40,001 bases of DNA from Lentilactobacillus diolivorans DSM 14421. GTDB taxonomy: Bacteria > Bacillota > Bacilli > Lactobacillales > Lactobacillaceae. The DNA lies in assembly GCF_001434255.1 (NCBI RefSeq), contig NZ_AZEY01000080.1, positions 1 to 40,001 on the forward strand, given 5' to 3'. Shown here piece after piece: positions 69-38,275 of the stretch. Made by a program: the position numbers and the translations under genes. A model generated the notes under the pieces. It saw only the letters and a list, made by a program, of their open reading frames with translations, was not told the DNA's origin and searched no databases. Position 1 is the stretch's first letter, and the number at the start of each line of letters is the position of its first letter.

Positions 69-180
69 GTGGACCAGCAAGCAGCCCCCGGCCATATAAG
101 CCTCCTAACTTGATATTCCAAAATCAGGAATATCAAGTTAGGAGGCTTATATTCTGGGGTCTAACCGCTTGCTGGTCCAC
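69..180 (+). repeat. Long nested hairpin repeat, copy A
   Basis: The outer stem GTGGACCAGCAAGC (69-82) pairs perfectly with 167-180. The inner stem 94-119 pairs perfectly with 127-152 around a 7-nt loop (AAAATCA). Between them are two asymmetric internal loops: GGCC opposite TCT, and an extra TAACC on the 3' side. It lies between two convergent genes and could act as a two-way terminator. Copies B, C and D share the same outer stem. Copies E to I have different stems with the same architecture. Confidence 0.9.
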
Positions 181-213
181 TCTGGTTATTTAATAATAGA
201 ACATCAATATTTT

Positions 214-1164
214 TTAACCCAATGCTTTTAAATTTGATATCAGGACGCTCCCTAAGATCACTAGTCCGGAACCAATAACGATACGAACCATTTGATCTTT
301 GGTTTTATATTCGTGAAGCAGGTAGATGCCGCCAAACGTGCCAATAATAACGCCGGTTTGTGAGAGGGTCGTGGCCATCGCTTGGCCAATGAGTGGGTTA
401 GCAGCGGAGATGAACATAAATAAATTTCCGATACCCCAATCAATGCCTGTTGTGAGGTTTTTCCAAGTGTATTTCTGAAACATGATGGTTCGCTCGTGGA
501 ATAAGAAGATAATAATTAAGATCGAACCAATGACTTGACCGACCGCTTGAGGAGTCACAATCGCAGTCATATAATTGATGCCGTTATTAGCGTTATGAAT
601 ATGGTTACTAATATACCCAACTTTGACCAACAGATTTGGAAAAACAAAATAAAGCATAAAGCCAACTGTTGAAATAATTAAGGCGATCATTCCTTGATTG
701 TAAGTTGCTGGTCGTTTAGTGGCTTGATGTTTATCTAAGGTTGAACGTGCGGCTGTCAAGATTGCACCGATGGTAATTAATGCAATTGAGATTGACCCAA
801 ATAGCCACATTTTAACGGTAATCCATTCACCTAAAACGGCTGCGGCCATCAGCGCATTTGAAATAATTTGACCGGCTGTTGAAATTGGTAACGCTGAAGA
901 AACCCCCATTTTTTTGAACGCAATGAATTGTTCAGACGTGCCAACGGCCCAAAACAGCCCTGAAAGGATGCCAACGATCCAAATACGATCAGTTATAATA
1001 ACACCGCGTGGAATAACGAATGTTAAATAAATAAAGGTACCTAAGATTAAAGCGCCAAGCGATTCACCTAAGACCTGCTGGCCAGCTGAGCCACCCATTT
1101 TTGTACAAATTAAGCCAACTGATCCCCAAGTTAATGGTGGGATTAAGGCCATTAAAATTGCCAT
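214..1164 (-). CDS. GRP-family sugar uptake protein (GlcU/RbsU-like)
   Basis: This 316-residue, very hydrophobic protein has about ten predicted membrane segments and begins MAILMALIPPLTWGSVG, the N-terminus typical of the glucose/ribose porter (GRP) family within the drug/metabolite transporter superfamily. Known members (GlcU, RbsU) import glucose or ribose by proton symport without phosphorylation. Length is normal for the family. The ATG at 1164 has GGGG eight bases upstream. The polyol dehydrogenase is upstream on the same strand, but a hairpin lies between them, so co-transcription may be partial. The substrate cannot be read from the sequence; a polyol or pentose is possible given the neighbour. 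Confidence 0.85.
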   Translation of the reverse strand: MAILMALIPPLTWGSVGLICTKMGGSAGQQVLGESLGALILGTFIYLTFVIPRGVIITDRIWIVGILSGLFWAVGTSEQFIAFKKMGVSSALPISTAGQIISNALMAAAVLGEWITVKMWLFGSISIALITIGAILTAARSTLDKHQATKRPATYNQGMIALIISTVGFMLYFVFPNLLVKVGYISNHIHNANNGINYMTAIVTPQAVGQVIGSILIIIFLFHERTIMFQKYTWKNLTTGIDWGIGNLFMFISAANPLIGQAMATTLSQTGVIIGTFGGIYLLHEYKTKDQMVRIVIGSGLVILGSVLISNLKALG

Positions 1165-1217
1165 AATAATTTCCCCAATCTAATTCGATAATAGTAGAAA
1201 AGTAGATTTCAAAAGAT

Positions 1218-1266
1218 AAGGACATGAGTCAAATATTCGAAATTAGAATATCCAACCCGTGTCCTT
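1218..1266 (-). terminator. Imperfect hairpin downstream of polyol dehydrogenase
   Basis: The outer arms AAGGACA and TGTCCTT continue inward with G-U pairs, and the inner arms ATATTC and GAATAT close the loop. On the - strand it is followed by ATCTTTTG, a weak T tract. It probably attenuates or ends transcription between the dehydrogenase and the sugar porter gene. Confidence 0.5.
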
Positions 1267-1324
1267 AACGTTCAGAAATTAACATATTCTCTTTTTCACT
1301 TTGACGTGTCTAAACGATGACATA

Positions 1325-2434
1325 TTAACTCCTCAATTTTTCGTTGGGATAAATCATGACTTTTAGTGAGCCGCCCTTATCAGTTCTGGTTTCTTCAAGC
1401 GCATCACGAGTCTCATCTAAACTGTAGTAATTAGTCAATAAGTTTTCAAGAACGTCGAGGTGTTTAGCCAGAATCTTAACGCCCAATGCATAGGTGTTGG
1501 CATATCGGAAAATACCGAAGATTTGCGTTTCGTGATCAGTCATGAAAGGAATGTCCAATGGAATTTTGTCAGTGGTTGGCACACCAACATAAGCAATTTT
1601 ACCACCCCGTTTTAGTGCTCGGAGGCCTTCGCGTTCAGCTGCCGGATTACCAGAAGCATCCATGACGTAGTCAACACCTTCATTGTTTGTTAGAGACATA
1701 ATCTCTTCAAGCGAATCAGTCTTTCGGATATCGATGATTTCATCGGCACCCATCTTCTTAGCAGTTTCAAGACGTAAATCCTCACTGTCGCTGACAATGA
1801 TCCGGTCGACACCAAACTGACGAAAAGCAAGAATTGCAAGGAGACCAACGGCGCCCATTCCGGAAATAAAGGCTGTGGTTCCGGGCTTAACGTCTAGCTT
1901 CTGGCAAACGTGAACGCCGACGGAAAATGGTTCGTTTAATGCGGCAATTTCATATGGCATTTCATCAGGAATTGGGAAAACAAAATCTTGTGGGTAAACG
2001 ATTAATTCGGAAAGATCACCATCGACTGGTGGCGTTGCCATAAATTTCATATTTGGGCAGAGATTGTATTTACCTTCTCGACAATAATTGCAATGGCCAC
2101 ATGGCACACCTGGTTCAATTGCTACTCGATCACCGCGTTTAACGGTGGTGACCTCATCACCGGTTGCGACTACGATTCCTGAACTCTCATGTCCAAGAAT
2201 GAGTGGCTTTTTAACAACGAAGTCACCAATATGACCGGTATCATAATAGTGGACATCTGACCCACAAATGCCAACTGCCATCACTTTGATTAAAACGTCG
2301 GTCGGCTTCATTGCGGGAAGTGGGGTATCTTTCATTTCGATATCAAAAACTTTGTTTAAAACCGCACTGCGAGTTGTTTTAGGGTAATTATCCTTTGTAT
2401 AATTTGGAAGTGAAACACGTTCTTTAACATCCAT
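1325..2434 (-). CDS. Zinc-dependent polyol dehydrogenase (sorbitol/xylitol dehydrogenase family)
   Basis: A 369-residue medium-chain dehydrogenase. Catalytic zinc ligands are visible as C57 (GICGSD) and H82-E83 (GHESSG). The structural zinc loop has C112, C115, C118 and C126. The Rossmann motif is SGMGAVGLLA. The GHIGDF segment and overall match place it with NAD-dependent sorbitol/L-iditol/xylitol dehydrogenases, which oxidise polyols to ketoses in the cytoplasm. It has an N-terminal extension of about 20 residues relative to typical members. The ATG at 2434 follows AGGAGG by eight bases. It is divergent from a LacI-type regulator with LacI/cre-like palindromes between them, so regulation by that repressor and CcpA is likely. 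Exact substrate unknown. Confidence 0.88.
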   Translation of the reverse strand: MDVKERVSLPNYTKDNYPKTTRSAVLNKVFDIEMKDTPLPAMKPTDVLIKVMAVGICGSDVHYYDTGHIGDFVVKKPLILGHESSGIVVATGDEVTTVKRGDRVAIEPGVPCGHCNYCREGKYNLCPNMKFMATPPVDGDLSELIVYPQDFVFPIPDEMPYEIAALNEPFSVGVHVCQKLDVKPGTTAFISGMGAVGLLAILAFRQFGVDRIIVSDSEDLRLETAKKMGADEIIDIRKTDSLEEIMSLTNNEGVDYVMDASGNPAAEREGLRALKRGGKIAYVGVPTTDKIPLDIPFMTDHETQIFGIFRYANTYALGVKILAKHLDVLENLLTNYYSLDETRDALEETRTDKGGSLKVMIYPNEKLRS

Positions 2435-2537
2435 GATAAAATCCTCCTAGGTAATTTGTATTTAAACGCTGATAAATAATATCTGCACATCATTAAGTGA
2501 ATTGAAGCGGCCACTTTCAATCTTTCGAATAACATGA

Positions 2538-2549
2538 GTAAGCGATTAC
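2538..2549. promoter_or_regulatory. LacI-family operator-like palindrome
   Basis: GTAAGCGATTAC is palindromic except for one central pair. It closely matches the core of the perfect operator at 7072-7093 (GTAAGCGCTTAC), so it may bind the same local LacI-type regulator. It is about 100 bases upstream of the dehydrogenase start. Confidence 0.55.
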
Positions 2550-2730
2550 GCAGATTGGATAATCACGCTCAAGTATTTGAAACACGATTCAACTAATTGA
2601 TGAGGGATTAAGTTGTTAATAATTGCTGAAGTAAGGGAGATCAGGGAATTATCAGTTATAAACCTCACTAATTAGTTTAAAAGTAATTGAAAAGAAGTCT
2701 AGCGGGCTCCTCAAGCATTTCTTGTTATTG

Positions 2731-2744
2731 GGGAAGCGCTTACA
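2731..2744 (-). promoter_or_regulatory. cre-like / LacI-type box
   Basis: On the - strand it reads TGTAAGCGCTTCCC, which fits the catabolite-responsive element consensus (TGNNANCGNTNNCA) except at the last base. It lies about 85 bases upstream of the regulator -10 box. CcpA or the local LacI protein could bind. Confidence 0.6.
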
Positions 2745-2866
2745 CATATTATTGCACCAAATGATATCGCTGTCAATTTTTAATTAAAAATATATTTGAC
2801 CTTGATAATTGTTTAACTGAGTAAGGTATAATTAGATTATTAAACAAAAATGGAGACTAAATAATA

Positions 2867-3853
2867 TTGAGAGTAAAAATTGCTGACATTGCTAAAATTG
2901 CTGGACTATCAACGGCTTCGGTCTCTCGAATTTTAAATGACCGTGGCGGATATAGTAAGGCGACTGCAAGTCGGGTAATGCAGATTGCCGACGAACTGGG
3001 TTATTATAAAGATCGTTCTGCGTCAGATCTTGCCAGCCAAAGTAACCATACAATTGGGCTTATCTACACGGATTCTGAAACTAATTTTAATGATTTGGTT
3101 ATTAAAGGAATTATGGCAGAGGCCACAATAAATAAATTGGACACTATTTTAATGATTGCCAAGAAGAATGATCCAATCAGTTTAACTAAAGTTGTCCGGG
3201 ATATGATTGAACGCCGGGTGTTTGGCTTGTTATTTGTTTCGATCCAACCTAATCAGCAGGTGATTGGGATGCTTAACCAAGCTGGTATTTTTTCCCAGGT
3301 AGTTGGGGCATCCACTGAAAATCAAGTTTCGTATGTTTCCTCCGATGATTTTCAGATTGGGTATCAGGCAACCGATTATTTGATTAAGGCTGGTTACCAG
3401 AGAATTGGATTTGCTGGCGCGGATATCACTAATGATTATGTCGGTCAACTACGACTCCAAGGGTATCGGCAGGCATTAAAGACGCATCAAATGACATTTA
3501 ACCAGGAATGGTCATGTGAAGGCAATTTTAGTTATCAATCAGGGATAACAGCTGCCAAGTATTATCACAATCATTCGACTGTTGATGCGATTATTGGTGC
3601 GAGTGATGAAACTTCATGGGGATTACTAAACGGATTTTATGATTTGGGTGTTTTGGTTCCTGACGATATTGCAATTATGAGTATTGACGGTACTGAATTG
3701 TGTACACAAACCCGGCCGCAGTTGACCAGCATTACGCAAAATTTTGCGTTAATGGGAAAAACAGCGGTTGATCGATTGGTGAATCATGCTGATTCTTCTC
3801 AAACCACAACCACCAGTATTCCATTAAAAATTGAGAAACGGGAAACATCATAG
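2867..3853 (+). CDS. LacI-family transcriptional regulator
   Basis: This 328-residue regulator has an N-terminal helix-turn-helix (KIADIAKIAGLSTASVSRIL, about residues 4-23) and the hinge helix region, followed by a periplasmic-binding-protein-like sugar-sensing domain. Length is standard for LacI/GalR regulators. Translation starts at TTG 2867, with GGAG about 11 bases upstream; there is no suitable ATG. It sits between the dehydrogenase and the glucosidase/symporter operon and converges on the latter through a shared terminator. It probably represses that operon through the 22-bp palindrome at 7072-7093. The inducer is likely an alpha-glucoside or its product; that is inference from neighbours. 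Confidence 0.93.
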   Translation: MRVKIADIAKIAGLSTASVSRILNDRGGYSKATASRVMQIADELGYYKDRSASDLASQSNHTIGLIYTDSETNFNDLVIKGIMAEATINKLDTILMIAKKNDPISLTKVVRDMIERRVFGLLFVSIQPNQQVIGMLNQAGIFSQVVGASTENQVSYVSSDDFQIGYQATDYLIKAGYQRIGFAGADITNDYVGQLRLQGYRQALKTHQMTFNQEWSCEGNFSYQSGITAAKYYHNHSTVDAIIGASDETSWGLLNGFYDLGVLVPDDIAIMSIDGTELCTQTRPQLTSITQNFALMGKTAVDRLVNHADSSQTTTTSIPLKIEKRETS

Positions 3854-3914
3854 GGTAACGAGGAAGAGTCCGGTAATCAATTGTTCATTTCTGAAAAATG
3901 ATAAGTATTACAAA

Positions 3915-3971
3915 AAAATCACGTTTTCTTAGCAGTCATTGACATACTTACTGCTAAGAAAACGTGATTTT
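3915..3971. terminator. Bidirectional terminator between LacI regulator and glucosidase
   Basis: The 20-base arms 3916-3935 and 3951-3970 are fully complementary, with core GTTTTCTTAGCAG. The arm is preceded by a run of A and followed by TTTTC. It serves the convergent LacI regulator (+) and glucosidase (-), and abuts the glucosidase stop codon. Confidence 0.9.
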
Positions 3972-5644: not shown

Positions 5645-5648
5645 ATTA

Positions 5649-7049: not shown

Positions 7050-7071
7050 AATGAACCCACCCTTCATTATT

Positions 7072-7093
7072 TTTACGTAAGCGCTTACGTAAA
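7072..7093. promoter_or_regulatory. Perfect 22-bp LacI-family operator
   Basis: A perfect palindrome of 22 bases centred on the GCGC of GTAAGCGCTTAC, with flanking TTTAC and GTAAA arms. It lies directly downstream of the -10 box of the symporter operon, over the expected transcription start, an ideal repressor position. Confidence 0.9.
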
Positions 7094-7096
7094 TTA

Positions 7097-15782: not shown

Positions 15783-16059
15783 ATAATGACTTATTTTCAA
15801 AAGTAGCAGGAATTACCACCATGCCAGTTAATGGTGAGCGCTGAAAATAATTTTACACTTTTCGTTAAATTATCTTCTTTTCGCATAGTAACTCTAACTA
15901 CAACCTAATTTTAGTGATTTTTAAGCTGTGGATGCAAGAAATTGCATTTTTTTGTCATGTGGATGAGGTGATTTTTCATATATTCGATGTAAGGGATAAT
16001 CAGGCTTTTGATGATCGGTTGATTAAAAATATTGAAAGATTTGGCAGCCGAGCGGAAAT
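15783..16059. other. Gene-poor spacer with protein-like frame running into repeat E
   Basis: No gene with a ribosome site is seen here. A + strand frame is open from about 15870. It holds ATG 15932 and reads DEVIFHIFDVRDNQAFDDR before ending at TAA 16088-16090 inside the first half-hairpin. The composition looks protein-like, but there is no Shine-Dalgarno, so this may be a decayed gene end or chance. Confidence 0.3.
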
Positions 16060-16131
16060 GTGGTCTAGAAAACAACTCCCGGCCATATAAGTCGTCCAGC
16101 CAAATATTCAAGCCCGGAATATCTGGCTGGA
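16060..16131 (+). repeat. Partial (5'-arm) copy preceding hairpin repeat E
   Basis: It contains the 5' outer arm, the invariant CCCGGCCATATAAG box and a short inner hairpin (CCAGCCAAATATTC with GGAATATCTGGCTGG), then stops. The flank GGCAGCCGAGCGGAAA occurs before both this half and the full copy, so the unit is a tandem partial duplication. Confidence 0.8.
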
Positions 16132-16151
16132 ATTGGCAGCCGAGCGGAAAC

Positions 16152-16261
16152 GTGGTCCCAAAGGCAGCTCCCGGCCATATAAGCCACTCAGCCAAATATT
16201 CAAACCCGGAATATCTGGCTGAGTGGCTTATATTCTGGGAGCTAATCGCCTTTTGGACCAC
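16152..16261 (+). repeat. Long nested hairpin repeat, copy E
   Basis: The outer stem GTGGTCCCAAAGGC pairs with GCCTTTTGGACCAC (one bulge position). The inner stem ATATAAGCCACTCAGCC pairs with GGCTGAGTGGCTTATAT and continues to ATATTC/GAATAT. The invariant GGCC opposite TCT and the 3' TAATCG are kept. The outer and inner stems differ from copies A-D at both sides together, which is covariation. It ends four bases before the stop codon of the small - strand frame at 16265. Confidence 0.9.
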
Positions 16262-16264
16262 TCT

Positions 16265-18344: not shown

Positions 18345-18453
18345 AGACAAAGAGCGATTTTACGGCAAGAATGGCTTTTGCCTCACGTTTTGGCTTAGTA
18401 ATAGTTGTGATTACAAAAATGGGACTGGACAAAATTACTTTTGTCTCAGTCCC
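18345..18453 (-). repeat. Reduced hairpin repeat, copy I, with upstream terminator module
   Basis: In - orientation it reads GGGACTGAGACAAAA terminator, then the TGTAATCACAACTATTACT box, AAAACGTGAGGC, and a short remaining stem (GGCAAAAGCC type). It aligns with locus H (38094-38275) but lacks the inner hairpin. The terminator part is 18419-18453 (GGGACTG/CAGTCCC) and probably ends the queT transcript as well. Confidence 0.65.
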
Positions 18454-19349: not shown

Positions 19350-19440
19350 TAGACGTGATTATTATCTGAGCAAAAACATGTCACAAAAGGCACTTCCGAT
19401 CGCTTAACTGAATTATCCAACTATTCAAGTTCAGAATAGC
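19350..19440 (+). repeat. Decayed upstream module of hairpin repeat B
   Basis: The stretch GTGTAGACGTGATTATTATC, then AAAAGGCACTTCC, then GAATTATCCAACTATTC aligns with the first half of locus H (38136-38215). It is a degraded partial copy placed upstream of full copy B. Confidence 0.6.
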
Positions 19441-19467
19441 TCGTTGAACTTTTTATTTGGTTGAAAC

Positions 19468-19581
19468 GTGGACCAGCAAGCAGGTCCCGGCCATATAAGC
19501 CCCTTAACCTTAACATTCCAAAATCAGGAATATTAAGGTTAAGGGGCTTATATTCTGGGACCTAAGCGCTTGCTGGTCCAC
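19468..19581 (+). repeat. Long nested hairpin repeat, copy B
   Basis: Same outer stem as copy A (GTGGACCAGCAAGC). The inner stem differs on both sides together (AAGCCCCTTAACCTTAA with TTAAGGTTAAGGGGCTT). The middle stem is GTCCC/GGGAC here against CCCC/GGGG in A. It ends nine bases before the purine permease stop codon and may end that transcript. Confidence 0.9.
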
Positions 19582-19589
19582 TCTATTAT

Positions 19590-20900
19590 TTAGTTATTCA
19601 AAATCCACAAGAAGATAATGAAGACAACTGCCAATCCATACATCATGGCACTGACTTCTTTACCTCGGCGAGCGGCAATCATAGTGATAGGATAGGTGAT
19701 AAATCCAAGGGCAATCCCATCCGCAATACTATAAGTGAATGGCATTCCGACCAAAGTAATAAATGCCGGTGCGGCAATCTCAAATTTTTCCCAATGAACG
19801 TTTTTCAATGACTGCGCCATTAACACACCAACAATAATTAATGCTGGTGCCGTTACTTGACTTGTGATGACTGTTAATAATGGTGAAAAGAAAGTTCCTA
19901 AGACAAACAGGATGCCGACAACAACGGCGGTGAAACCGGTTCGGCCACCAACGGCAATTCCGGCAGATGACTCAACGAAAGCTCCCATTGGAGAGGTTCC
20001 TAAAATTGACCCCACCGCCATCGTTGAAGAGTCGGCGATTAAAGCCCGGCCGATGTGTGGAATCCGGTTGTCTTTAATGAAGCCGGCTTGTTCAGCCAAA
20101 CCAACCAGTGTTCCAGCTGTATCAAAGAATGTTACCAACAAGAAAGTGAGCACAACAACGATTAATTGTAATGAATTAATATCGCCGATATGTGAAAGTG
20201 CTACGCCAAAAGTTGGGGCTAAACTGGGCATTCCCGATACCCATTGATGTGGTAAGGGGATTAGCCCGGTTACCATCCCCAGAATGGCATTCAAAACCAT
20301 GCCAATAAAAATGGCACCTGGGACTTTTCGACTCATTAAAATGAGTGATACCAACAAGCCAAAAATTGTCAGCCAAGTTGTTCCGACGTGAAGAGACCCC
20401 AGACTTACTAACGTGTCTTTACTTGATTGGATTAGGCCACCATCGTTCATGCCAATAAAGGCGATGAACAAACCAATCCCACCACCGATAGCAGCTTTGA
20501 AGTCAGCAGGAATGGAGTCGATGATCTTCTCACGTAACTTTAAAGCAGTTAAAATAATAAAAATAACTGAAGCAACAAAAACACCTGCCAGAGCAGTTTG
20601 CCAAGAAACTTTCATCCCTAGAACAACGGAATAGGCAAAGAAAGCGTTAATCCCTAAACTAGCTGAAATGGCAATCGGGTAATTGGCAATAATTCCCATT
20701 AAGAAACAACCAAAAGCTGATGCCAAAGCGGTAGCGGTAAAAATAGCTCCCTTATCCATTCCTGTGACACCTAATACGTTTGGATTAACAAATAAGATGT
20801 AAACCATTGAAACGAATGTCGTAATGCCGGCAATCGTTTCTGTGCGGAAATTAGTATTCCGACCCTTAAAATCGAAATACTTAGCAATTGAATTTAGCAT
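19590..20900 (-). CDS. AzgA-family (NCS2-like) purine permease, guanine/hypoxanthine type
   Basis: A 436-residue protein with 12-14 predicted membrane segments. NFRTETIAGITTFVSMVYILFVNP at the start and ASLGINAFFAY in the third helix are marks of the AzgA/PbuG/PbuO branch, which takes up guanine, hypoxanthine or adenine by proton symport. TFFDTAGTLVGLAEQAG is the conserved central motif. Length is normal. The ATG at 20900 follows GAGGGAG by seven bases. A TATAAT lies on the - strand at 20957-20962. No purine riboswitch is evident in the short leader. It is monocistronic, with copy B of the repeat immediately downstream. Confidence 0.92.
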   Translation of the reverse strand: MLNSIAKYFDFKGRNTNFRTETIAGITTFVSMVYILFVNPNVLGVTGMDKGAIFTATALASAFGCFLMGIIANYPIAISASLGINAFFAYSVVLGMKVSWQTALAGVFVASVIFIILTALKLREKIIDSIPADFKAAIGGGIGLFIAFIGMNDGGLIQSSKDTLVSLGSLHVGTTWLTIFGLLVSLILMSRKVPGAIFIGMVLNAILGMVTGLIPLPHQWVSGMPSLAPTFGVALSHIGDINSLQLIVVVLTFLLVTFFDTAGTLVGLAEQAGFIKDNRIPHIGRALIADSSTMAVGSILGTSPMGAFVESSAGIAVGGRTGFTAVVVGILFVLGTFFSPLLTVITSQVTAPALIIVGVLMAQSLKNVHWEKFEIAAPAFITLVGMPFTYSIADGIALGFITYPITMIAARRGKEVSAMMYGLAVVFIIFLWILNN

Positions 20901-23983: not shown

Positions 23984-24115
23984 AATTTGAAAGACGGTTC
24001 TTCACGTGGCGGAATGGTGGTGGGATGCTAATAAAAGCAGCTTATTGCTACGTAGCCGAATTATCCAAATATTCAAGCTAAGAAAATCTTGTTGAACTTT
24101 TTATTTAGTTAAAAC

Positions 24116-24225
24116 GTGGACCAGCAAGCAGACCCCGGCCATATAAGCCCCTAACTTAATATTCCAAAATCAGGAATATCAAGTTAGGGGCTTATATTCT
24201 GGGGTCTAACCGCTTGCTGGTCCAC
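24116..24225 (+). repeat. Long nested hairpin repeat, copy C
   Basis: Outer stem as copies A and B. The inner stem AAGCCCCTAACTT pairs with AAGTTAGGGGCTT and is followed by AATATTCC/GGAATATC. A decayed half module (GAATTATCCAAATATTC, 24058-24074) lies just upstream in the same orientation. Confidence 0.9.
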
Positions 24226-24615
24226 TCTGGTATAAAAAGTCCCCACACAACCAAAGTTGTTGGGGACTTAGGACATTGGGTTATCGAATTTATGTATCCG
24301 CCTGGTTTTGGCCAGGCGTTATTAGGAGTAAGGACCAATCGGCGATTTCGAACTTGAAAGATATATTGGGGGTAGATCGTTAATTCTTGCTTCCGATATT
24401 AAATCGTAGTTACGCCAAAAGGCCCTCATAACAAGATCAATGCAAGCATAAAGCTTTCATTTAGGTCAATTAATGGATGCAAACCTACATCCACCACTAA
24501 TAATAGCCTTTTTTTCGTAATGTTCAACGATAACGTCTTTAAAGCTTTTATTACTTCAAAAATGGGTGATTTGTGACTTTTGACGGTGTTTTGTGTGTGG
24601 TAATATGGTGACAGA
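24226..24615. other. Gene-free gap with two hairpins
   Basis: It contains the stems AAGTCCCCACACAAC/GTTGTTGGGGACTT (24237-24269) and CGCCTGG/CCAGGCG (24299-24318). The remaining 300 bases show no gene with a ribosome site on either strand. The - strand frame here continues into hairpin repeat F and is not credible. Confidence 0.5.
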
Positions 24616-24725
24616 GTGGAATCACAAGCGGTTAGCTCCCAGAATGTAAGCACCCCAGCCCCATATTCTGGTTTTGAATGTGGGGCTGGGGTGCTTACAT
24701 GGCCGGGAGCTGCTTGTGATTCCAC
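24616..24725 (-). repeat. Long nested hairpin repeat, copy F (opposite orientation)
   Basis: The outer stem GTGGAATCACAAGC pairs perfectly with GCTTGTGATTCCAC. The inner stem GTAAGCACCCCAGCCCC pairs with GGGGCTGGGGTGCTTAC. In - orientation it keeps GGCC opposite TCT and the 3' TAACCG. Stem sequences differ from A-E on both sides. Confidence 0.9.
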
Positions 24726-24750
24726 GTTTCGGCCGGGTAACAAAGACGAT

Positions 24751-24815
24751 CCCCCATATTCTGGTTTAGAATGTGGGACTGGCGCTTATATGGCCGGGAG
24801 CTGCTTGTGAAAGCA
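24751..24815 (-). repeat. Partial (5'-arm) copy adjoining repeat F
   Basis: In - orientation this half carries the outer 5' arm, GGCCATATAAG and a short inner hairpin (CCCACATTC/GAATATGGG), and lies upstream of full copy F. It is the same full-plus-half arrangement as loci E and G. Confidence 0.8.
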
Positions 24816-24837
24816 CGTTCGGCTAGGTAACCGAAGC

Positions 24838-24945
24838 GATTGAGGATGAGACAATAATCGTTTTGTCCAGTCTCTGTTAGTGTAAATACAATTATCACCG
24901 GGAAAAAGGCTGGAAGTTAAGTGTCTTTTGTCCCACTCTGACCCC
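24838..24945 (+). repeat. Terminator/box module and 3' remnant of an H-type repeat
   Basis: ATGAGACAATAATCGTTTTGTCCAG is a GAGACAAAA-type hairpin. It is followed by GTGTAAATACAATTATCACC and CTGGAAGTTAAGTGTC..GTCCCACTCT, which aligns with the box and the 3' arm of locus H (38136-38275), with the middle missing. It ends 35 bases before addB. Confidence 0.6.
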
Positions 24946-32280: not shown

Positions 32281-32374
32281 CAAAACATGACTGCCAATTT
32301 GAAGATTAATTTGCTGTTCCTTACACTTCGGTAAAATTCACCCCTTTAACCATAAATATTTTCAAAGGTAATGA

Positions 32375-32380
32375 TATAAT
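32375..32380 (+). promoter_or_regulatory. Extended -10 promoter of L,D-transpeptidase gene
   Basis: TGATATAAT gives a TG motif one base before a perfect TATAAT, 34 bases upstream of the gene. The -35 is poor. Confidence 0.55.
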
Positions 32381-32413
32381 CGAGTAAGTATTTTTGAAAA
32401 TAGGGGATAAATT

Positions 32414-32977
32414 ATGAACAGATTTGTGCAAATTATTCTCGCGGTTACTATTGCCACGATGGTGACTGGCTGTTCGAACCCAAACAGTCAGTCTAATAAT
32501 TCCAGCAAAAAAACGGCGGCTGTTAAAGCTGAACAGCCAATTAATTGGAAGCAAGCTTCTCAAGATAAGCCCTACCCTACGATCAGTCAAAATAATGGGC
32601 GTTATATTCAGGTTTCCCTTGAGAAACAGCGTGTCTATATCATGAGTCCCAAGCATCGGGTTTTGTACACGATGTATGCCTCGACTGGTAAGAACCACTC
32701 AACGCCTCGCGGAACGTATCATATTCAGCAAGAACGTGGTAATTTCTTCTATAATCAGCAGTCAAAGGAGGGCGCTCATTATTGGACGTCCTGGAAAGAT
32801 CATGGTATCTATTTATTTCATACAGTGCCAACCAACGCTAAGGGTCATTATATTGTGTCTGAAGCAGATCGATTGGGCAAAACGGCTAATTCTCATGGCT
32901 GTATCCGATTAGCCGTGCCGGATGCTAAATGGATTAATCACACGGTGCCGGCTGGAACAAAGGTTGTTGTTAAATAA
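32414..32977 (+). CDS. L,D-transpeptidase lipoprotein (YkuD domain)
   Basis: 187 residues. The N-terminus is a lipoprotein signal peptide with lipobox VTGC (lipidated C20). A low-complexity Ser/Asn/Lys linker follows, then a YkuD catalytic domain with STGKNHSTPRGTY and the active-site motif SHGCIRL. The enzyme sits on the outer face of the membrane and forms 3-3 peptidoglycan cross-links or attaches groups to the wall. Spacing of the catalytic His and Cys is normal. The ATG at 32414 follows AGGGG by eight bases. It is monocistronic and downstream of addA. Confidence 0.92.
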   Translation: MNRFVQIILAVTIATMVTGCSNPNSQSNNSSKKTAAVKAEQPINWKQASQDKPYPTISQNNGRYIQVSLEKQRVYIMSPKHRVLYTMYASTGKNHSTPRGTYHIQQERGNFFYNQQSKEGAHYWTSWKDHGIYLFHTVPTNAKGHYIVSEADRLGKTANSHGCIRLAVPDAKWINHTVPAGTKVVVK

Positions 32978-33093
32978 GGGGCTAATTATTTCTTCAAACT
33001 AATTAGGTTTTAGGTTTAGAGCACTTTTTAGCCGTTTCAGAACCGATGGGGTGTCATTAAACAATAAATTAAAATGAGTTAGGAGCGATTCAT

Positions 33094-34239
33094 TTGGTTA
33101 AATTCAATACGTTATTAGTTCGAGGCGGTAAGCCTGACGATAATAATACTGGTGCAGTCAATGTCCCAATCTATAATTCTTCAACATTTCGCTATCCCAA
33201 GTTGGGGACGGATGTTCGCTGGGATTATGAACGTTCAGGTAATCCAACTCGGGATGCTGTTGAAAATGTTTGTGCGGAGTTGGAAAACGGCGATCGTGGA
33301 TTTGCTTTTTCTAGTGGCATGGCTGCCATTCATGCGGCGTTGTCACTTTTTAAGCCGGGTGATCATATTATTATTGGCGACAATATTTATGGTGGCACTT
33401 TCCGGTTGGTTAATGATTTCCTGAAGCCCCGGGGAATTGAATTTTCAGAGGTGGATACGCAGGATGTGCAAGCTGTTGAAGCTGCTTTTCAGAAAAACAC
33501 CAAAGCAGTTTACTTTGAGACGGTTACTAATCCACTCTTGAAGGTTTCAAGCGTGAAGCAATTGGCACAGGTTGCCCATCAACATCATGCAATGGTTATC
33601 GTGGACAATACCTTTTTAACACCATATCTTCAGCGGCCATTAGATTTAGGAGCAGATCTGGTCTTGCACTCTGCAACAAAGTATTTAGGTGGTCATTCCG
33701 ATTTTACGGCTGGGATTATTGTGACTAAGACTAAAGAATTAAGTGACCAAGTCTATACATTACAGAACAGTATCGGGGCTGTTTTGGCACCTCAGGAAGC
33801 CAACCTGCTGCGTCGGGGCATTCAAACATTGAATATTCGAATGGATCGCCATATTCAAAATGCTCAAAAAATTATTGACTACCTTCTGAGTAATCCGAAA
33901 GTTGGGAAAGTTTACTACCCAACGGTTGATAAATCGAGTGAAGATTATCAGATTATCACGGATGAAGCCAATGGTGCCGGGGGTGTCTTGTCATTTGAGC
34001 TCCAAGATGGCTTGGATGCTGCCAAATTTGTTAATAGTCTAAAACTAATTATCTTAGCAGTAAGTCTGGGGGCAGCTGAAAGTTTGGTTGAGGTTCCAGC
34101 GTTTATGTCGCATTTTGAAATTCCCAAGCCACAACGATTGGAAATGGGAATCAAAGATGAATTGATTCGACTGTCGGTAGGTTTGGAGGACGCGGATGAC
34201 TTAATAGCGGACCTGGACCAGGCGTTTGCGAAGATTTAG
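33094..34239 (+). CDS. PLP-dependent cystathionine gamma/beta-lyase family enzyme
   Basis: A 381-residue Cys/Met metabolism PLP enzyme. The PLP lysine is K196 (LHSATKYLGGHSD). YERSGNPTRDAVE, SSGMAAIHAAL, YGGTFRL and VVDNTF-type (VIVDNTFLTPYL) motifs are all present, and SLGAAESLVEVPA lies near the substrate carboxylate. It could be cystathionine beta- or gamma-lyase, or a C-S lyase releasing thiols; sequence alone does not decide. The start is TTG 33094, eight bases from AGGAG. It is monocistronic, with repeat G starting nine bases after the stop codon. No T-box or S-box leader is seen. Confidence 0.92.
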   Translation: MVKFNTLLVRGGKPDDNNTGAVNVPIYNSSTFRYPKLGTDVRWDYERSGNPTRDAVENVCAELENGDRGFAFSSGMAAIHAALSLFKPGDHIIIGDNIYGGTFRLVNDFLKPRGIEFSEVDTQDVQAVEAAFQKNTKAVYFETVTNPLLKVSSVKQLAQVAHQHHAMVIVDNTFLTPYLQRPLDLGADLVLHSATKYLGGHSDFTAGIIVTKTKELSDQVYTLQNSIGAVLAPQEANLLRRGIQTLNIRMDRHIQNAQKIIDYLLSNPKVGKVYYPTVDKSSEDYQIITDEANGAGGVLSFELQDGLDAAKFVNSLKLIILAVSLGAAESLVEVPAFMSHFEIPKPQRLEMGIKDELIRLSVGLEDADDLIADLDQAFAKI

Positions 34240-34247
34240 AAACCAGA

Positions 34248-34358
34248 GTGTGATAAGCAGCGGTTAGTCTCCAGAATATAACGCCACCACCCCAATCTTC
34301 CTGATTTTGGAAGATTGGGGTGGTGGCGTTATATGGCCGGGGCTGCTGCTTATCACAC
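34248..34358 (-). repeat. Long nested hairpin repeat, copy G (opposite orientation)
   Basis: The outer stem GTGTGATAAGCAGC pairs perfectly with GCTGCTTATCACAC. The inner stem TAACGCCACCACCCCAATC pairs with GATTGGGGTGGTGGCGTTA. In - orientation it keeps GGCC opposite TCT and TAACCG on the 3' side. All stem sequences differ from the other loci while pairing is kept. Confidence 0.9.
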
Positions 34359-34385
34359 GTTTTGGCTAAGTAGCCAAAAAACTGA

Positions 34386-34453
34386 TACTTCCAAATTGAT
34401 TTTGGAAGATTGGGATGGTGGGGTTATATGGCCGGGGGCTGCTGCTTATCACA
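34386..34453 (-). repeat. Partial (5'-arm) copy adjoining repeat G
   Basis: A duplicate of the GGCC-side arm (GTGTGATAAGCAGC in - orientation), with an inner hairpin CTTCCAAA/TTTGGAAG. It lies upstream of full copy G in the element's own orientation. Confidence 0.8.
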
Positions 34454-34599
34454 CGTTTTGGCAAGTTTCTGTTGGTGTAAACACGATTGTTACCGAGCAG
34501 GACGCGGGAAAAAAACAATTTCCGGCTGTGTCACCGAATGATCCAAATATTCAAATCCAGAATATCTCCTTGAAATTTTTACTTAGTAGAAATCAAATC

Positions 34600-34713
34600 G
34601 TGAACCAACAAGCAAACCCCGGCCATATAAGCCCCCTAACCTTAATATTCCAAAATCGGGAATATCAAGGTTAGGGGGCTTATATTTTGGGGTCTAAACG
34701 TTTGCTGGCGCAC
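34600..34713 (+). repeat. Long nested hairpin repeat, copy D (slightly decayed)
   Basis: The outer stem GTGAACCAACAAGC with GTTTGCTGGCGCAC is a mutated version of the A-C stem. The inner stem AAGCCCCCTAACCTT pairs with AAGGTTAGGGGGCTT. The box module (GTGTAAACACGATTGTTACC) and a decayed half copy lie upstream at 34476-34565. It separates the lyase gene from the small membrane protein on the other strand. Confidence 0.88.
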
Positions 34714-34762
34714 TCTCTTTAATTCAGTCCGCTTGAAAATGGATTTATGGTCAGTGAATTTG

Positions 34763-34954
34763 CTAATTTAAATTGAATAAATTAATTAAAACAACGCTCA
34801 TTACCAGCGCAATTGCAATTAATCCAATTGAAAATTTGGTAAACCACTGGTGATTAATTTTGTTTAACAGGAAAAAAACACCAATCAAACAAATGACACC
34901 AATCGTATACATGATAATCAGGGCGGTTTTTACAGCAGTATCTGCTTGAATCAT
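34763..34954 (-). CDS. Small two-TM membrane protein, unknown function
   Basis: 63 residues from ATG 34954 (AGGTGAT just upstream; the GTG at 34963 lies within that site). Two hydrophobic helices, AALIIMYTIGVICLIGVFFLL-like and FSIGLIAIALVMSVVLINL, flank a basic turn (NKINHQWFTK). No family recognised. Repeat D lies just downstream on the same side as its stop and may serve as its terminator. Small two-helix proteins of this kind are common in lactobacilli, but no role can be inferred. Confidence 0.65.
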   Translation of the reverse strand: MIQADTAVKTALIIMYTIGVICLIGVFFLLNKINHQWFTKFSIGLIAIALVMSVVLINLFNLN

Positions 34955-35046
34955 CAATATCACCTCATTAAAAATAATTGTACAACAGAATCTGTCGTTT
35001 TATCCAAGTAAAATGAGCCGAACACGTTTTCCAATTCAAAAAAATA

Positions 35047-35099
35047 TCAGCCGGCCCATCACCTATTTAAGAAAAAGTGATGGACCGGCTGACTTTTTT
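35047..35099. terminator. Bidirectional terminator, acetyltransferase side
   Basis: TCAGCCGGCCCATCAC pairs with GTGATGGACCGGCTGA (one C-A/G-U position). TTTTTT follows on the + strand and ATATTTTTTT on the - strand. It ends the 35115 gene and insulates the small membrane gene. Confidence 0.92.
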
Positions 35100-35114
35100 G
35101 AATTTAAATTAAGG

Positions 35115-35648
35115 TTACTTAATTAATAATTGGTAAGCGTATCGGGGGGATTCTTCACTATCGGCCTCTTCCATGTAAATAGTGCCGCGTTTTGTAAAGC
35201 CGTTTGTTGTGATGACATGCTGCATACCTTTGTTATCAGGATGCGTGTCAATTCGAACATCTTTATAACCCAAAACATTTGAAATAGTGATCAGACCACT
35301 AATCATTTTTTCAGAAAGGTGTTGGCCGCGAAAATCCGATGACATTGCAATTCGGTGAATCGCTGTGTAACGGCCGTGGACACCATTTAACCATTCACCA
35401 TCATGGATTTTTAGGTAACTGACGTCTAATCCTTGATGAAGAGCGGCAGTAGCGGCAATTTTACCGTCGATGATGAGAACGTAAGAGATACCGGACTTAA
35501 CATCGGTCTCCAGATCTTCATCACTGGGATAGCCGTTTTGCCATTGGTCGATTTCTTGTTGTTTTAAATAGGCTTTGGCATCACCTATGATTTTTTTAAT
35601 TTCTGGAAGGTCTTGATTAGTTGCTTGACGTAAATATGTTGCAGGCAT
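35115..35648 (-). CDS. GNAT-family N-acetyltransferase
   Basis: 177 residues with a GNAT fold. It starts YLRQATNQDLPEIKKII, has the LIIDGKIAATAAL strand pair, IHRIAMSSDFRGQHLSEKMI supplying the acetyl-CoA loop, and VRIDTHPDNKGMQHVITTNGF, which matches the C-terminal motif of the family. The usual Q/RxxGxG/A is changed to FRGQHLS, a common variant. The ATG at 35648 has AAGGATG upstream. It is monocistronic, with a strong terminator. The acceptor substrate is unknown. Confidence 0.88.
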   Translation of the reverse strand: MPATYLRQATNQDLPEIKKIIGDAKAYLKQQEIDQWQNGYPSDEDLETDVKSGISYVLIIDGKIAATAALHQGLDVSYLKIHDGEWLNGVHGRYTAIHRIAMSSDFRGQHLSEKMISGLITISNVLGYKDVRIDTHPDNKGMQHVITTNGFTKRGTIYMEEADSEESPRYAYQLLIK

Positions 35649-36053
35649 TAATGCTCACATCCTTATTAATATTTCTAATCTGAATGATTAGATAATTCAA
35701 CACGAAAGAGCATTATAGAGCAAAAGTATTTAGGGTGCAATAGAAAAGATAAAAAAGTTAGGTTGTCAGGTTATTGTGGTTATAAAATGATTATTAAACG
35801 CTGATCTAACAGCTTCTATGTTGATACACGGGCTTGAACATTATTTTGTGGCTGTTCTTTTAGGCGTAATTTTAATGTAACTATTTGATGTGACGGTCAC
35901 TATTATCATGGGTTGGTCGTTAAATCGAAAAAGCACCAGCTAAAACCTTAAATTAAAGATTTTAGCTGGTACTCATTAAAATAGTTTAGATCAAAATGTT
36001 GGTTTGCCCGAACTGAAAATCAAAACGAGATTTACCAAATTGAATTGTCCTTA
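35649..36053. other. Intergenic stretch, only a terminator visible
   Basis: About 400 bases hold the CsbD terminator (35935-35970) and AT-rich promoter-like sequence next to the acetyltransferase start. I see no gene or other structure here. Confidence 0.5.
35935..35970 (-). terminator. Terminator of csbD-like gene
   Basis: ACCAGCTAAAA pairs with TTTTAGCTGGT, with CTT/AAG inside. On the - strand it is followed by GCTTTTTCG. Confidence 0.85.
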
Positions 36054-36278
36054 TTAATCTTTCTTTTGGCTGTCGTCTTTTTTCTTATCTTTTTTATCTA
36101 ACAGGTCGTTTGCTTTTTCAGCGACCTTATCCTTAGCTTTTTCCAGTTTTTCTTTAGCTTTTCCGGATGCATTTTGTAACTTGCCCTTTAATTCGAGCTT
36201 GTCATCACCACTGGCTTTTCCAAGTCCTTCTTTTGTCTTACCGGCAACTTGATCTGATTTATTTTTTAAATGACTCAT
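36054..36278 (-). CDS. CsbD-family stress protein
   Basis: 74 residues, highly charged and Lys/Asp-rich, with the CsbD pattern NKSDQVAGKTKEGLGKASGDDKLELKG split across two short helices. A Lys-rich tail (KDKKKDDSQKKD) follows. CsbD-like proteins are small, induced under general stress, and of unknown molecular function. Length and composition are normal. The ATG at 36278 is preceded by AAAGGATGTG. It is monocistronic, with its own terminator. Confidence 0.9.
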   Translation of the reverse strand: MSHLKNKSDQVAGKTKEGLGKASGDDKLELKGKLQNASGKAKEKLEKAKDKVAEKANDLLDKKDKKKDDSQKKD

Positions 36279-36413
36279 TATGACACATCCTTTCTTATTT
36301 CTAACATTATCATATCTGATTGATCCATCATTCGCAAAAATGATGATCGGAAAATTACTGAATATTAATCAAGGTGGTGCTATGATTATTGTGAGATTAG
36401 GAGTGATTTCTGG

Positions 36414-38003
36414 ATGGCTAACAATAAAATTGCAAAAAAGCAGAAAGTCCGGTCAGGTCAAGCGACTCATCAAGAATCAAATATCTTTAAAGTTCTTGGA
36501 TTAATGGCATCAAGATTGCTTGGGGAAAATTCGTATGCCAAAAGTTCGATTTATTCTGAAAGATTAGCGCGGGGGGCACGGGAATATTTAGAACGGCCGT
36601 TAAAGACAAGCATGTCACTGGCAGAATTTAAAATGAACAAAGCAACTCAGATGGGGTATCTTGTTGCGGTTAAGGATTTAATAGACGTGTCCTTTGATCA
36701 ATTTACTGCAATGACGCTCTGGGCAACTGGTCAAAATACAGCTCAGGTGATTAATCGTGCTGCGGGTAGTGACTATTCAACTTATCTGGATCAAAGTACC
36801 AATCCGCAACGGTTTACTGCTGGATATCGGGCGGCCGTTATTCAATTTGTTAGGGCAGTTGCCGGGGAAAACGGGGTGATTGGACAGTTTAATCAGGCAT
36901 TAAAAGCATTAACTTTTTCCCAACAAATTGCTTTGACTAATGGTTTGTTTGCCCATACTTACGATTATCTTGGCGGAGTTAACCCGTTTCAAAAAATCAA
37001 AAGTAATGCCAGCGCTTTGTCGTCCACTAACGAAAAAGTTGTGAAGGGTATTTTAGCAGAGGCCAATAATGGCTTTTTAACTGGTCAGGTTGTCGGTGAG
37101 CATGGTCAGTCAGTTATTGGTGATTATGCTTATCGCGGAGATGATTTTACCAGTCAACATGATCTACCGGCAATGATGGTTCAATCGTTAAACACACATA
37201 GTCTGACCGATGCCATTAATAAATTTGTTAATGTGACGTTGAAACAACTTATTAATTGTCTAAGTGCGATTGGCTTGGCTGCGTTTGTCTATCGATCTTT
37301 AACTCCCACTAACCGTGATTTGATTGGTGTCCCGGAAACCGATGACACTAATCAGGACAAAATTATTGATGCGACCATTCAGCATTTTTCTACTATTAAC
37401 AATAAAATTGATTTTCCCGAAACAATTACTGAATTGGCAGACAAATTGGCCATCCTGGATTTAAGCGGCACCGGTAAGTCAAGAAGTTCAAGCTTGCAAA
37501 ATCTTCAACAACGGTACAGTGTCGTTTTAAATAATGAAAATCACCCCGTTGTTAATGATCGAGGTGAGCTTGTTAAGGTTAATTATGGTGTCTTTGAATT
37601 GCTTTATGAAACATTAAAACAAACAATTGGACTGCCACTCATTGTGAGTTACACAGTAACAAGAAACCAGCTTTTAACTGAAATTAGAGCTGGTGTGTAT
37701 TTGGCATCACGTCGAGTGAGTGAACCGGATCTGCGACTTGAAGCAACTTTGACTGACTTTGTCCGGGATGTTGCCCGCTACCAGGTTGACCAGTTGATCG
37801 GCTTGGTTATTCGTGGTCAAAATGATCGTGCGGCCAAGAAACAGGCTGGCAGCTTGGGCGCTTTTCATCATTTGATGCGGGTAGACTCTGATCTGCAATC
37901 AATCAATCCACAGTATGGTGCCTTAATGAAGGACACTAAGAAGTTGTATTACCAGTTATATCAGAGCTCATTTTTGACTCAGGACGCTCCCAGTCATCAG
38001 TAA
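36414..38003 (+). CDS. Large soluble protein of unknown family (529 residues)
   Basis: ATG 36414 has AGGAG about ten bases upstream. The product is 529 residues with a basic Lys-rich N-terminus (NNKIAKKQKVRSG), no signal peptide and no clear membrane helix. Much of it looks alpha-helical. The first half contains AREYLERPLKTSMSLAEFK and LAEANNGFLTGQVVGEHG; the second half has LDLSGTGKSRSSS, which resembles but does not satisfy a Walker A motif. I recognise no domain. It stands alone between csbD-like and thiolase genes, with a GAGACAAAA terminator after it. Codon use and ribosome site support a genuine gene. Confidence 0.85.
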   Translation: MANNKIAKKQKVRSGQATHQESNIFKVLGLMASRLLGENSYAKSSIYSERLARGAREYLERPLKTSMSLAEFKMNKATQMGYLVAVKDLIDVSFDQFTAMTLWATGQNTAQVINRAAGSDYSTYLDQSTNPQRFTAGYRAAVIQFVRAVAGENGVIGQFNQALKALTFSQQIALTNGLFAHTYDYLGGVNPFQKIKSNASALSSTNEKVVKGILAEANNGFLTGQVVGEHGQSVIGDYAYRGDDFTSQHDLPAMMVQSLNTHSLTDAINKFVNVTLKQLINCLSAIGLAAFVYRSLTPTNRDLIGVPETDDTNQDKIIDATIQHFSTINNKIDFPETITELADKLAILDLSGTGKSRSSSLQNLQQRYSVVLNNENHPVVNDRGELVKVNYGVFELLYETLKQTIGLPLIVSYTVTRNQLLTEIRAGVYLASRRVSEPDLRLEATLTDFVRDVARYQVDQLIGLVIRGQNDRAAKKQAGSLGAFHHLMRVDSDLQSINPQYGALMKDTKKLYYQLYQSSFLTQDAPSHQ

Positions 38004-38093
38004 TTTCCATAGACGGATAACGATTAAAACTCGAAACACGATTGAGAGCATTACCGGTACCTGATTTAATTTAATAAGGTATCTGAAATAAAA

Positions 38094-38133
38094 GACGGGG
38101 CTGAGACAAAAATAATTTTGTCCCAGCCCCGTC
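38094..38133 (+). terminator. GAGACAAAA-type terminator / upstream module of locus H
   Basis: GACGGGGCTGAGACAAAA pairs with TTTTGTCCCAGCCCCGTC, a stem of 18 with one G-U pair around a 4-base loop. It ends the 529-residue gene and forms the first module of repeat locus H. No long T tract follows (TTGTG). Confidence 0.75.
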
Positions 38134-38165
38134 TTGTGTAATCACGATTATTACCAAGTGAAAAC

Positions 38166-38275
38166 GTGCGCCAAAAGGCAACTTCCTGCCGCGTAACCGA
38201 ATTATCCAAACATTCAAGCCCGGAATATTCGGATAATCCGATTACGCTCTGGAAGTTAACCGCCTTTCGTCCCAC
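38166..38275 (+). repeat. Long nested hairpin repeat, copy H
   Basis: The outer stem GTGCGCCAAAAGGC pairs imperfectly with GCCTTTCGTCCCAC. The middle stem is AACTTCC/GGAAGTT. GCC lies opposite TCT, then the inner stem GCGTAACCGAATTATCC pairs with GGATAATCCGATTACGC (one mismatch). The 3' TTAACCG is present. A TGTAATCACGATTATTACC box (38137-38155) lies just upstream. It lies between the 529-residue gene and the convergent thiolase. Confidence 0.88.

Follow-up and report, generated by a model that had tools for sequence, protein, structure and literature searches.

The giant hairpins of the window

What is the long palindrome that recurs along the genome of Lentilactobacillus diolivorans DSM 14421, and is it kept as DNA or as RNA? 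The window analysed here, a stretch of 40,001 nucleotides from this 3.26 Mb genome (G000), had been taken from its sequence alone to hold one hairpin family at nine loci (A to I), and eight of the nine are indeed giant hairpins, with scores of 95.7-134.1 bits from a covariance model (R1) that was built partly from these window copies themselves. The exception is locus I (18345-18453), which by eye is an eroded remnant with a companion hairpin (18421-18453) and not a giant hairpin, and which has no R1 match at E≤0.1. Strands below are those of the sense (RNA) strand, the loops having earlier been described on the opposite one.

On the minus strand, hairpin A (68-183; 134.1 bits, fold -82.8 kcal/mol) starts 30 nt past the stop of gene 214-1164(-), and hairpin B (19467-19584; 129.1 bits) starts 5 nt past the stop of gene 19590-20900(-), a stop that is also followed by hairpins in genomes G008, G021 and G022. 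Hairpin E (16151-16264; 120.2 bits) by eye abuts the TAA of a short minus-strand frame, and no ORF of at least 60 aa ends within 400 nt of it. Also on this strand are hairpin C (24115-24228; 128.5 bits), hairpin D (34599-34716; 110.2 bits, fold -61.8 kcal/mol), which has several mismatches, and hairpin H (38165-38278; 95.7 bits), which has a divergent stem type and lies 27 nt past the stop of gene 38306-39490(-). Sense-strand downstream of H we recognised by eye a short companion hairpin (GGGGCTGAGACAAAA..TTTTGTCCCAGCCCC; 38094-38134), and a query spanning both (38090-38285) matches Loigolactobacillus backii plasmids with 86% coverage and 81.8% identity. The plus strand has hairpins F (24613-24726; 119.9 bits) and G (34245-34359; 113.3 bits), the latter starting 5 nt past the stop of gene 33094-34239(+).

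The wide spans first drawn for E, B and F each contain one hairpin and, besides it, degenerate partial units that are not second hairpins. Beside E this is one arm with an apical hairpin (16059-16150, minus strand), seen by eye and caught in part by R1 (16095-16131, 21.8 bits, E 0.037); beside B it is a partial unit with linker (19376-19466, minus strand), assigned by eye and by comparison with array units. Further partial units, identified from sequence and fold (F2 and G2, respectively), follow F (24727-24839) and G (34360-34465) downstream on the plus strand.

Architecture and conserved motifs

Read on the sense strand, the hairpin of about 115 nt begins with AGA and a 14-bp outer stem, continues through a 4-nt 5′-side bulge (GNTT), a stem of 6-7 bp and an internal loop of the AGA/GGCC type, and ends in an inner stem of about 26 bp with a small apical loop, often of 7 nt. 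The outer stems, the GGCC/TCT internal loop and the TAAnCG excess on the 3′ side, all reported from the sequence alone, hold on the strand on which they were first described. The arms of the outer stem had been said to match in every copy; they do so fully in A, B, C, F and G and at 13 of 14 pairs in E, but only partially, with several mismatches, in H and D. After the stem comes a linker, also conserved, that approximates GTTTCRGCTARGTAA; some copies have a companion hairpin there, and giant and companion hairpins were seen together in H and, among 20 copies of G005, in several.

The bulge is highly conserved: the aligner finds it in 112 of the 124 copies of the window's own genome, and it is also present in other genera. 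Its fourth base is T in 202 of 202 copies, a statistic that rests on copies selected for a 4-nt one-sided gap at that position, because rows in which the aligner found no bulge were dropped.

Covariation and the strand signature

Do the arms match because a fold is maintained? In an alignment of 32 copies from the window's own genome 97.3% of pair cells pair, versus 90.5% after shuffling and 28-46% when the partners are slid by 1-3 columns, and 26 of 43 pairs have two-sided changes (shuffled mean 8.5); none of 500 shuffles reached any of five measures, in a test whose structure was derived from the same alignment and in which related sequences can beat shuffles without structure. Two-sided changes are found in 45 of 47 pairs across a diverse alignment (35 distinct of 36 rows counted). 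Covariation beyond chance, as proposed from the sequence alone, is thus upheld, and the element is confirmed as real.

Arm matching may have a second source. Copying of one arm onto the other looks direct in copies L018 and L028, which have converted arms, and in L006, which lost its bulge; such copying can account for part of the matching and would inflate the covariation. Because it can match arms by itself, covariation alone is insufficient proof of RNA selection, and the case is carried instead by a strand-specific excess of G-U mismatches. On the sense strand, G-U and A-C mismatches in the window's own genome stand at 124:9 in the middle and inner stems and 163:26 once the outer stem is included (112 of 124 copies, the 12 in which the aligner found no bulge being dropped), at 176:20 in 90 of 106 items from 33 other genomes (12 dropped for the same reason and 4 as duplicates), with 29 of the 33 genomes leaning in the same direction, and at 76:9 in the diverse alignment, counts that are not independent because the copies are related by descent. 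The counter-point to an RNA reading is that in a single-stranded DNA hairpin of the sense strand, too, G-T would be tolerated more readily than A-C. The earlier view that selection acts on a folded nucleic acid with fixed unpaired motifs stands, but the RNA-like strand is the opposite of the one described.

Position at the 3′ ends of genes

Where do the hairpins lie? For 83 of 214 copies the sense-strand hairpin starts between -2 and +9 nt from a stop codon (stops of ORFs of at least 80 aa), versus 3 of 214 at the other end; by copy set the counts are 54 of 124 in the window's own genome, 10 of 32 and 19 of 58, whereas the other end gives 3 of 124 and 0 of 90. The remaining 131 copies lie outside this interval of any detected stop. 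Covariation, strand-specific G-U tolerance and a place on the coding strand past stops are among the features expected of a structured 3′-UTR RNA, and these three were found.

In the 150 nt downstream, hairpins that resemble terminators show only weak enrichment and no sense-strand bias: 9 of 121 on each strand in the window's own genome versus a background of 3 and 2 of 120, 6 of 32 on each strand in G005, and 9 of 58 (sense) and 20 of 58 (antisense) in the others. Within 350 nt the counts are 32 of 118 (sense) and 31 of 118 (antisense), with a background of 13 of 117 each. The idea of a fixed cassette of giant hairpin plus terminator is not carried by the counts at either distance.

Copy number and spread

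The window's own genome has at least 124 distinct copies. The search of further genomes by covariance model that the sequence-only reading had asked for gave R1 matches in 18 of 60 genomes, the window's own included (16 of 24 within the genus), and matches to a second model, R2, in 110 of 395 Lactobacillales genomes and 35 of 80 genera, in a sample of one genome per species. The nearest neighbour of a copy is in the same genome for 157 of 192 copies (shuffled mean 76), which points to growth within lineages.

What stands at sites that lack the hairpin? We compared seven filled and empty sites, hand-picked between G005 and G006 (85.6% identity in the window region) from a larger set of differing sites that includes tandem differences and further copies, with the direction of change inferred. 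At six of them (S1, S2, S3, S5, S6 and J1, of which S6 and J1 have a far flank without clear alignment) the species without the element has an ordinary intrinsic terminator, and the seventh, S4, is a deletion remnant. A classical MITE would have terminal inverted repeats and a target-site duplication; no such duplication was seen by eye at S1, S2, S3 and S5, where the sequence looks replaced and the species are highly diverged. The proposal that this is not only a repeat spread by copying accordingly needs amending, since same-genome neighbours and filled and empty sites indicate that the element does also spread.

Two queries gave no match in phages. Four stretches of viral contigs hold the pattern, and R1 has no match there at E≤0.1. 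On plasmids, no clean empty site came from the L. backii copies or from the IS30-linked ones found in L. plantarum and L. gasseri, and an apparently split element turned out to be a hairpin with an ISL3-family insertion at its apex.

Had the hairpin been catalogued before? The first reading could match it to no named family and had set a match in Rfam as one refuting outcome; at gathering score there were 0 matches in the window and, at 13 other loci, none but a T-box that lies apart from the hairpin. Sub-threshold matches over the hairpins (34150-38400 plus eight loci) were mostly microRNA precursors, with rliD at 21.6 of 50 bits. A search of the open literature found no description of such a hairpin in lactobacilli, and the papers listed by one using sequence strings were all unrelated by title. 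Because both Rfam and the open literature searched were silent, the hairpins are probably unannotated.

RNA, DNA or by-product?

The explanation that we consider probable is that a dispersed non-coding palindrome settles at gene 3′ ends, where it replaces intrinsic terminator hairpins and is kept as folded RNA at the 3′ end of the mRNA. Its strongest competitor, though an improbable one, is a single-stranded DNA mobile element. A transposase that reads hairpins, whether of the Y1/HUH type or another, would then act on the sense-strand DNA hairpin with its conserved bulge and internal loop, much as happens in REPIN/RAYT or IS200/IS605, and would target terminators because these form DNA hairpins too. 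The conservation of extra-helical bases in just one arm, the preference for one strand and the use of hairpins as targets do resemble such systems, and the lineage-specific expansion also speaks for this explanation. It does not, however, predict stop-codon adjacency at one end only, nor does the transposase follow the hairpin: among genomes of the genus Y1_Tnp occurs in 6 of 16 with the hairpin and 1 of 8 without, and G006 (two contigs), with its 53 R1 matches, has neither a Y1_Tnp nor an RVT_1 match. On this distribution, which covers the Y1 family only, we reject a RAYT origin. The reverse-transcriptase family RVT_1 does not track the hairpin either (5 of 16 genus genomes with it, 3 of 8 without, none in G000 or G006), and a retron origin is rejected on that ground.

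Still less likely is that these are merely oversized intrinsic terminators that were duplicated and have no other role. They occupy terminator positions, and T stands at +3 and +4 past the stem in 97-100% of the 153 of 214 copies profiled, but the conserved CAC-G-TTT gives way to C/T and mostly non-U bases, and the tail is not U-rich past about four bases. Termination also needs less than a stem of about 50 bp with a conserved bulge and loop. A purely mutational artefact, in which template switching in the palindrome copies arm onto arm with no structural selection, accounts for the converted arms, the bulge lost in L006 and the further 3′-arm units behind 47 of 124 copies, but we regard it as very improbable because it would erase a bulge that persists in most copies and across genera and does not predict a 6- to 14-fold sense-strand excess of G-U over A-C.

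In our best reading the element is a mobile hairpin of the EFAR/REP kind, which displaces terminators and would work as a 3′-UTR RNA. As RNA it could form a barrier against 3′-5′ exonucleases, might serve as an RNase III site, or might slow the terminating ribosome, as is reported for REPs that have a stop within 15 nt. It may spread by recombination or template switching between hairpins and not by a dedicated resident transposase. A bolder version, which we put forward tentatively and hold to be rather unlikely, would see in all copies one RNA domain that has escaped recognition and that sits at mRNA 3′ ends immediately after stops, across much of the Lactobacillales and perhaps other Bacilli. 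A cellular RNA-binding factor or an RNase would bind it through the GNTT bulge and the internal loop, and it would multiply by hairpin-templated recombination, replacing native terminators with no transposase of its own. More than 120 sites of one genome share one mobile RNA-like structure; if the reading is true, a repeat family rewrites mRNA 3′ ends, and the conserved bulge would point to an RNA-binding partner. The element would then exemplify a repeat that lands on the terminator itself, and it offers a direct test of the question “Are mobile palindromes selected as DNA or as RNA?”

Comparison with known systems

Among the known systems closest to the element is EFAR (Enterococcus faecalis repeats), which Venditti et al. 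in 2007 reportedly described as elements of about 170 bp with two stem-loops and modular variants, said to insert into stem-loop targets of 24-37 nt with loss of most of the target. Measured against this description of EFAR, our element shares the terminator targets, the partial units and, in some copies, the companion hairpin. Stem-loop targets with target loss correspond to the terminators at six of seven empty sites, and the two-stem-loop layout may have a counterpart in the companion of H and several G005 copies, although a terminator-like second hairpin is not general here. EFAR is not known to show an RNA signature tied to one strand, to adjoin stop codons or to have a GNTT bulge, and these features set the present element apart in a comparison by description and not by sequence. 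Pneumococcal BOX is a modular element with a repeated inner module, and, again compared by description and not by sequence, ours is modular too, its repeated module being one hairpin arm with the apical loop. The stem-loops of low-GC Firmicutes are described as terminator-like, whereas ours are hairpins of about 115 nt that belong to a single repeat family and conserve both a bulge and an internal loop.

EFAR is named among the MITEs of enterococci in the relevant passage of PMC3733652, where REPs are given as 20-40 bp with a GTAG or CGTC tag and often accompanied by IS200/IS605 transposases. Ribosomes stall at REPs that lie no more than 15 nt from a stop, and mRNA gains stability from REP hairpins, according to the portion of PMC12306157 that cites this earlier work. 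Like the REP/BIME sequences of enterobacteria, the element is a many-copy extragenic palindrome behind genes; as far as those passages describe REPs, it differs in its length of about 115 nt, its motifs and its having no Y1 partner. The miniature mobile elements YPAL, ERIC and NEMIS, as summarised in the sections of PMC2229807 that concern them, are likewise of about 100-170 bp and transcribed with genes as RNA stem-loops, and YPAL targets lie in or beside dyad symmetry; target sites are duplicated in that account, whereas none was seen by eye here. Finally, bacterial inverted repeats peak at +50 to +80 past stops in the part of PMC13155455 that reports their positions, in contrast to the -2 to +9 nt at which the giant hairpin often begins.

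The giant hairpin and its covariation

Eight of the nine loci that the sequence-only reading had grouped as giant nested hairpins are such hairpins, each 114-118 nt long, and the ninth, locus I, is an eroded remnant. In the assembly of L. diolivorans DSM 14421 (G000; 3,261,379 b in 109 contigs, the window being C23 in full), blastn with hairpin B as query gave 115 matching pieces. A covariance model trained on 32 copies (R1) led us to at least 124 distinct giant hairpins once opposite-strand duplicates were taken out, a lower bound in that 150 of 1,624 candidates were scored and extra copies were found in fetched flanks. Between genes 214-1164 and 1325-2434, R1 also matches 1193-1302 weakly (23.8 bits; GC 30%), perhaps an ordinary AT-rich terminator.

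The covariation of the stems claimed earlier held up. Among 32 G000 copies, 97.3% of pair cells hold standard pairs, two-sided changes occur in 26 of 43 pairs against 8.5 on average in shuffles, and only 28-46% of cells pair once the partner column is displaced by 1-3 positions. A diverse alignment of 36 rows (35 distinct), drawn from 27 genomes and one plasmid, has two-sided changes in 45 of 47 pairs, and 94.2% of its cells pair against 65.4% when shuffled and 36-44% when slid, the structure having been derived from one aligned copy, which biases comparison with slid versions in its favor; any of these measures was matched by none of 500 shuffles. Templated copying may add to the identity of the arms, because three copies suggest direct copying from arm to arm: both arms carry GGCC in L018 and AGAA in L028, and the bulge is gone from L006.

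A preferred strand and conserved unpaired parts

Could duplex DNA or copying alone maintain such a structure? If so, G-T and A-C mismatches would be expected to be about equally frequent. On the sense strand of 112 of the 124 G000 copies, the middle and inner stems hold 124 G-U, 9 A-C and 20 other mismatches and the outer stem 39, 17 and 40, while in 33 other genomes the stems of 90 of 106 items hold 176, 20 and 187, counts that are not independent as the copies are kin. The G-U excess appears in 29 of these 33 genomes, with three equal and one reversed, and the diverse alignment has 76 G-U to 9 A-C. Orientation was fixed by the bulge, independently of the mismatches, and most of the copies counted were found with R1, a model of the opposite strand. 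The strand that shows the excess, opposite to that on which the loops were originally described, is here called sense. A DNA hairpin of the sense strand would be expected to show a similar G-U preference.

The fixed unpaired motifs reported in the sequence-only reading are, on the sense strand, a bulge and an internal loop. Where the aligner detected a one-sided bulge of 4 nt (202 copies), its sequence is GNTT, with G at base 1 in 93-95% across three groups of copies, T at base 3 in 93-97% and T at base 4 in 100%, followed 3′ by A or T and then G. The loop is AGA facing GGC(C) in most copies of G000 and its congener G005, and varies more elsewhere. Across genera the inner stems have little common sequence except a TAA/TTA step close to this loop, and each of the three groups has a linker of approximately GTTTYRGCTARGTAA after the stem, as profiled in 153 copies. 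Short GGGACTGAGACAAAA..TTTTGTCCCAGCCCC-type hairpins lie beside giant hairpins at 38094-38134 and 18421-18453.

Stop codons and terminators

Taking open frames of 80 codons or more, we called an element adjacent if its start on the sense strand lies between -2 and +9 nt from the stop. G000 has 54 adjacent copies out of 124, G005 has 10 out of 32, and the other genomes have 19 out of 58; measured from the opposite end, the same distance is found in 3 of 124 and 0 of 90. In some copies stop and element overlap (e.g., T-AGAGTG). Orthologs of gene 19590-20900 (minus strand), behind whose stop hairpin B begins, carry a hairpin at the stop in G000, G008, G021 and G022; by eye, it is eroded in G005, G006 and G009 and absent from G001, G003, G016, G018 and G019, with the stop codon position unchanged in at least some of the hairpin-less orthologs.

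What occupies such positions where the element is absent? We compared seven filled and empty sites between G005 and its congener G006, which are 85.6% identical over the window region. At S1, S2, S3, S5, S6 and J1 the element-free species has an ordinary terminator hairpin at the element's position, whose right arm or T tract is traceable into the filled site at S1, S2 and S5, and which is only roughly traceable at S3; at S6 and J1 the alignment of the far side is unclear, and S4 appears to be the element's deletion remnant. The giant hairpin thus appears to replace terminators, the direction of change being one that we infer. The empty S6 site in G006 also has a short hairpin similar to the GGGACTGAGACAAAA..TTTTGTCCCAGCCCC type by itself.

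Range, expansion and mobilization

The proposed covariance-model search of relatives succeeded: R1 matches 18 of 60 genomes, G000 included, with 16 of 24 in the genus, and 29 of 395 Lactobacillales genomes. R2, built on the sense strand from diverse copies, matches 110 of the 395, in 35 of 80 genera, and 9 of 299 genomes in a class-wide sample (G000, one further Lactobacillales and seven outside the order). At the new loci from two R2 scans, starts fall -2 to +9 nt from a stop in 9 of 27 on the sense side versus 1 of 27 on the other, a measure free of circularity, and GNTT lies around the expected position in 23 of 27, a partly circular count since R2 includes the bulge. Outside Lactobacillales, where homology is tentative, some matches share the bulge, and a tandem array is seen in one. 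At L319 1500-1860 (G605, also outside the order), giant hairpins of a different sequence type stand in tandem, their motif resembling an intergenic repeat common in Bacillaceae. Whole or partial copies occur on plasmids of L. plantarum, L. gasseri, L. backii, L. brevis, Lactococcus and Enterococcus.

Of 192 copies, 157 have their nearest neighbor in their own genome (shuffled mean 76, maximum 99), and families have therefore expanded inside lineages. The suggestion that this is not only a repeat that spreads by copying finds support in the strand-biased G-U; lineage expansion and the filled and empty sites show that it spreads as well.

One to four extra 3′-arm units, typically spaced ~90-100 nt, follow 47 of 124 G000 copies; some also follow 7 of 58 copies in other genomes, with none among 32 G005 copies. 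Slippage or template switching seems to have produced them as a by-product. Tandem ~93-nt units (arm, apical loop and linker), the last a full hairpin, occur at L007 (G000:C60:89838-90233), L005, L009 and others, and any unit of such an array could pair with the single opposite arm. An ISL3-family element splits the apical part of a hairpin (L092 3026-3039, L215 1040, L216 701), its left junction in an L. backii plasmid and its right in a Pediococcus damnosus plasmid, and both junctions share 14 nt of the intact L092 hairpin. An IS30-type transposase gene adjoins the element on plasmids of L. plantarum and L. gasseri, where its 5′ part leads into a piece of element arm and apical loop (L093 2803-3053; L094 2854-3053).

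Neither enzyme family compared follows the element: Y1_Tnp occurs in 6 of 16 genomes with hairpins and 1 of 8 without, RVT_1 in 5 of 16 and 3 of 8, and neither was found in G006 (two contigs, 53 R1 matches). Our preferred, if unproven, route would be recombination or template switching between hairpins.

Possible function and known systems

The element is a strand-preferring, covarying hairpin with a conserved bulge and loop, often behind stops and at the sites of relatives' terminators. In keeping with the earlier failure to match it to a named family, no Rfam family matches at gathering score, and we found no account of it in lactobacilli in the literature covered, chiefly open-access papers. 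In behavior it resembles EFAR of Enterococcus, by description rather than sequence, and REP/YPAL. Stable terminator-like stem-loops close to stop codons are general in low-GC Firmicutes, according to PMC1590033. We suggest that the giant hairpin would be co-transcribed with its gene and act at the mRNA 3′ end, where the outer stem before the bulge would be reachable by a terminating ribosome. The closest experimental precedent that we found for hairpin action near stops is the REPs of E. coli, which, according to PMC12306157, stall ribosomes when at most 15 nt from the stop and protect mRNA.
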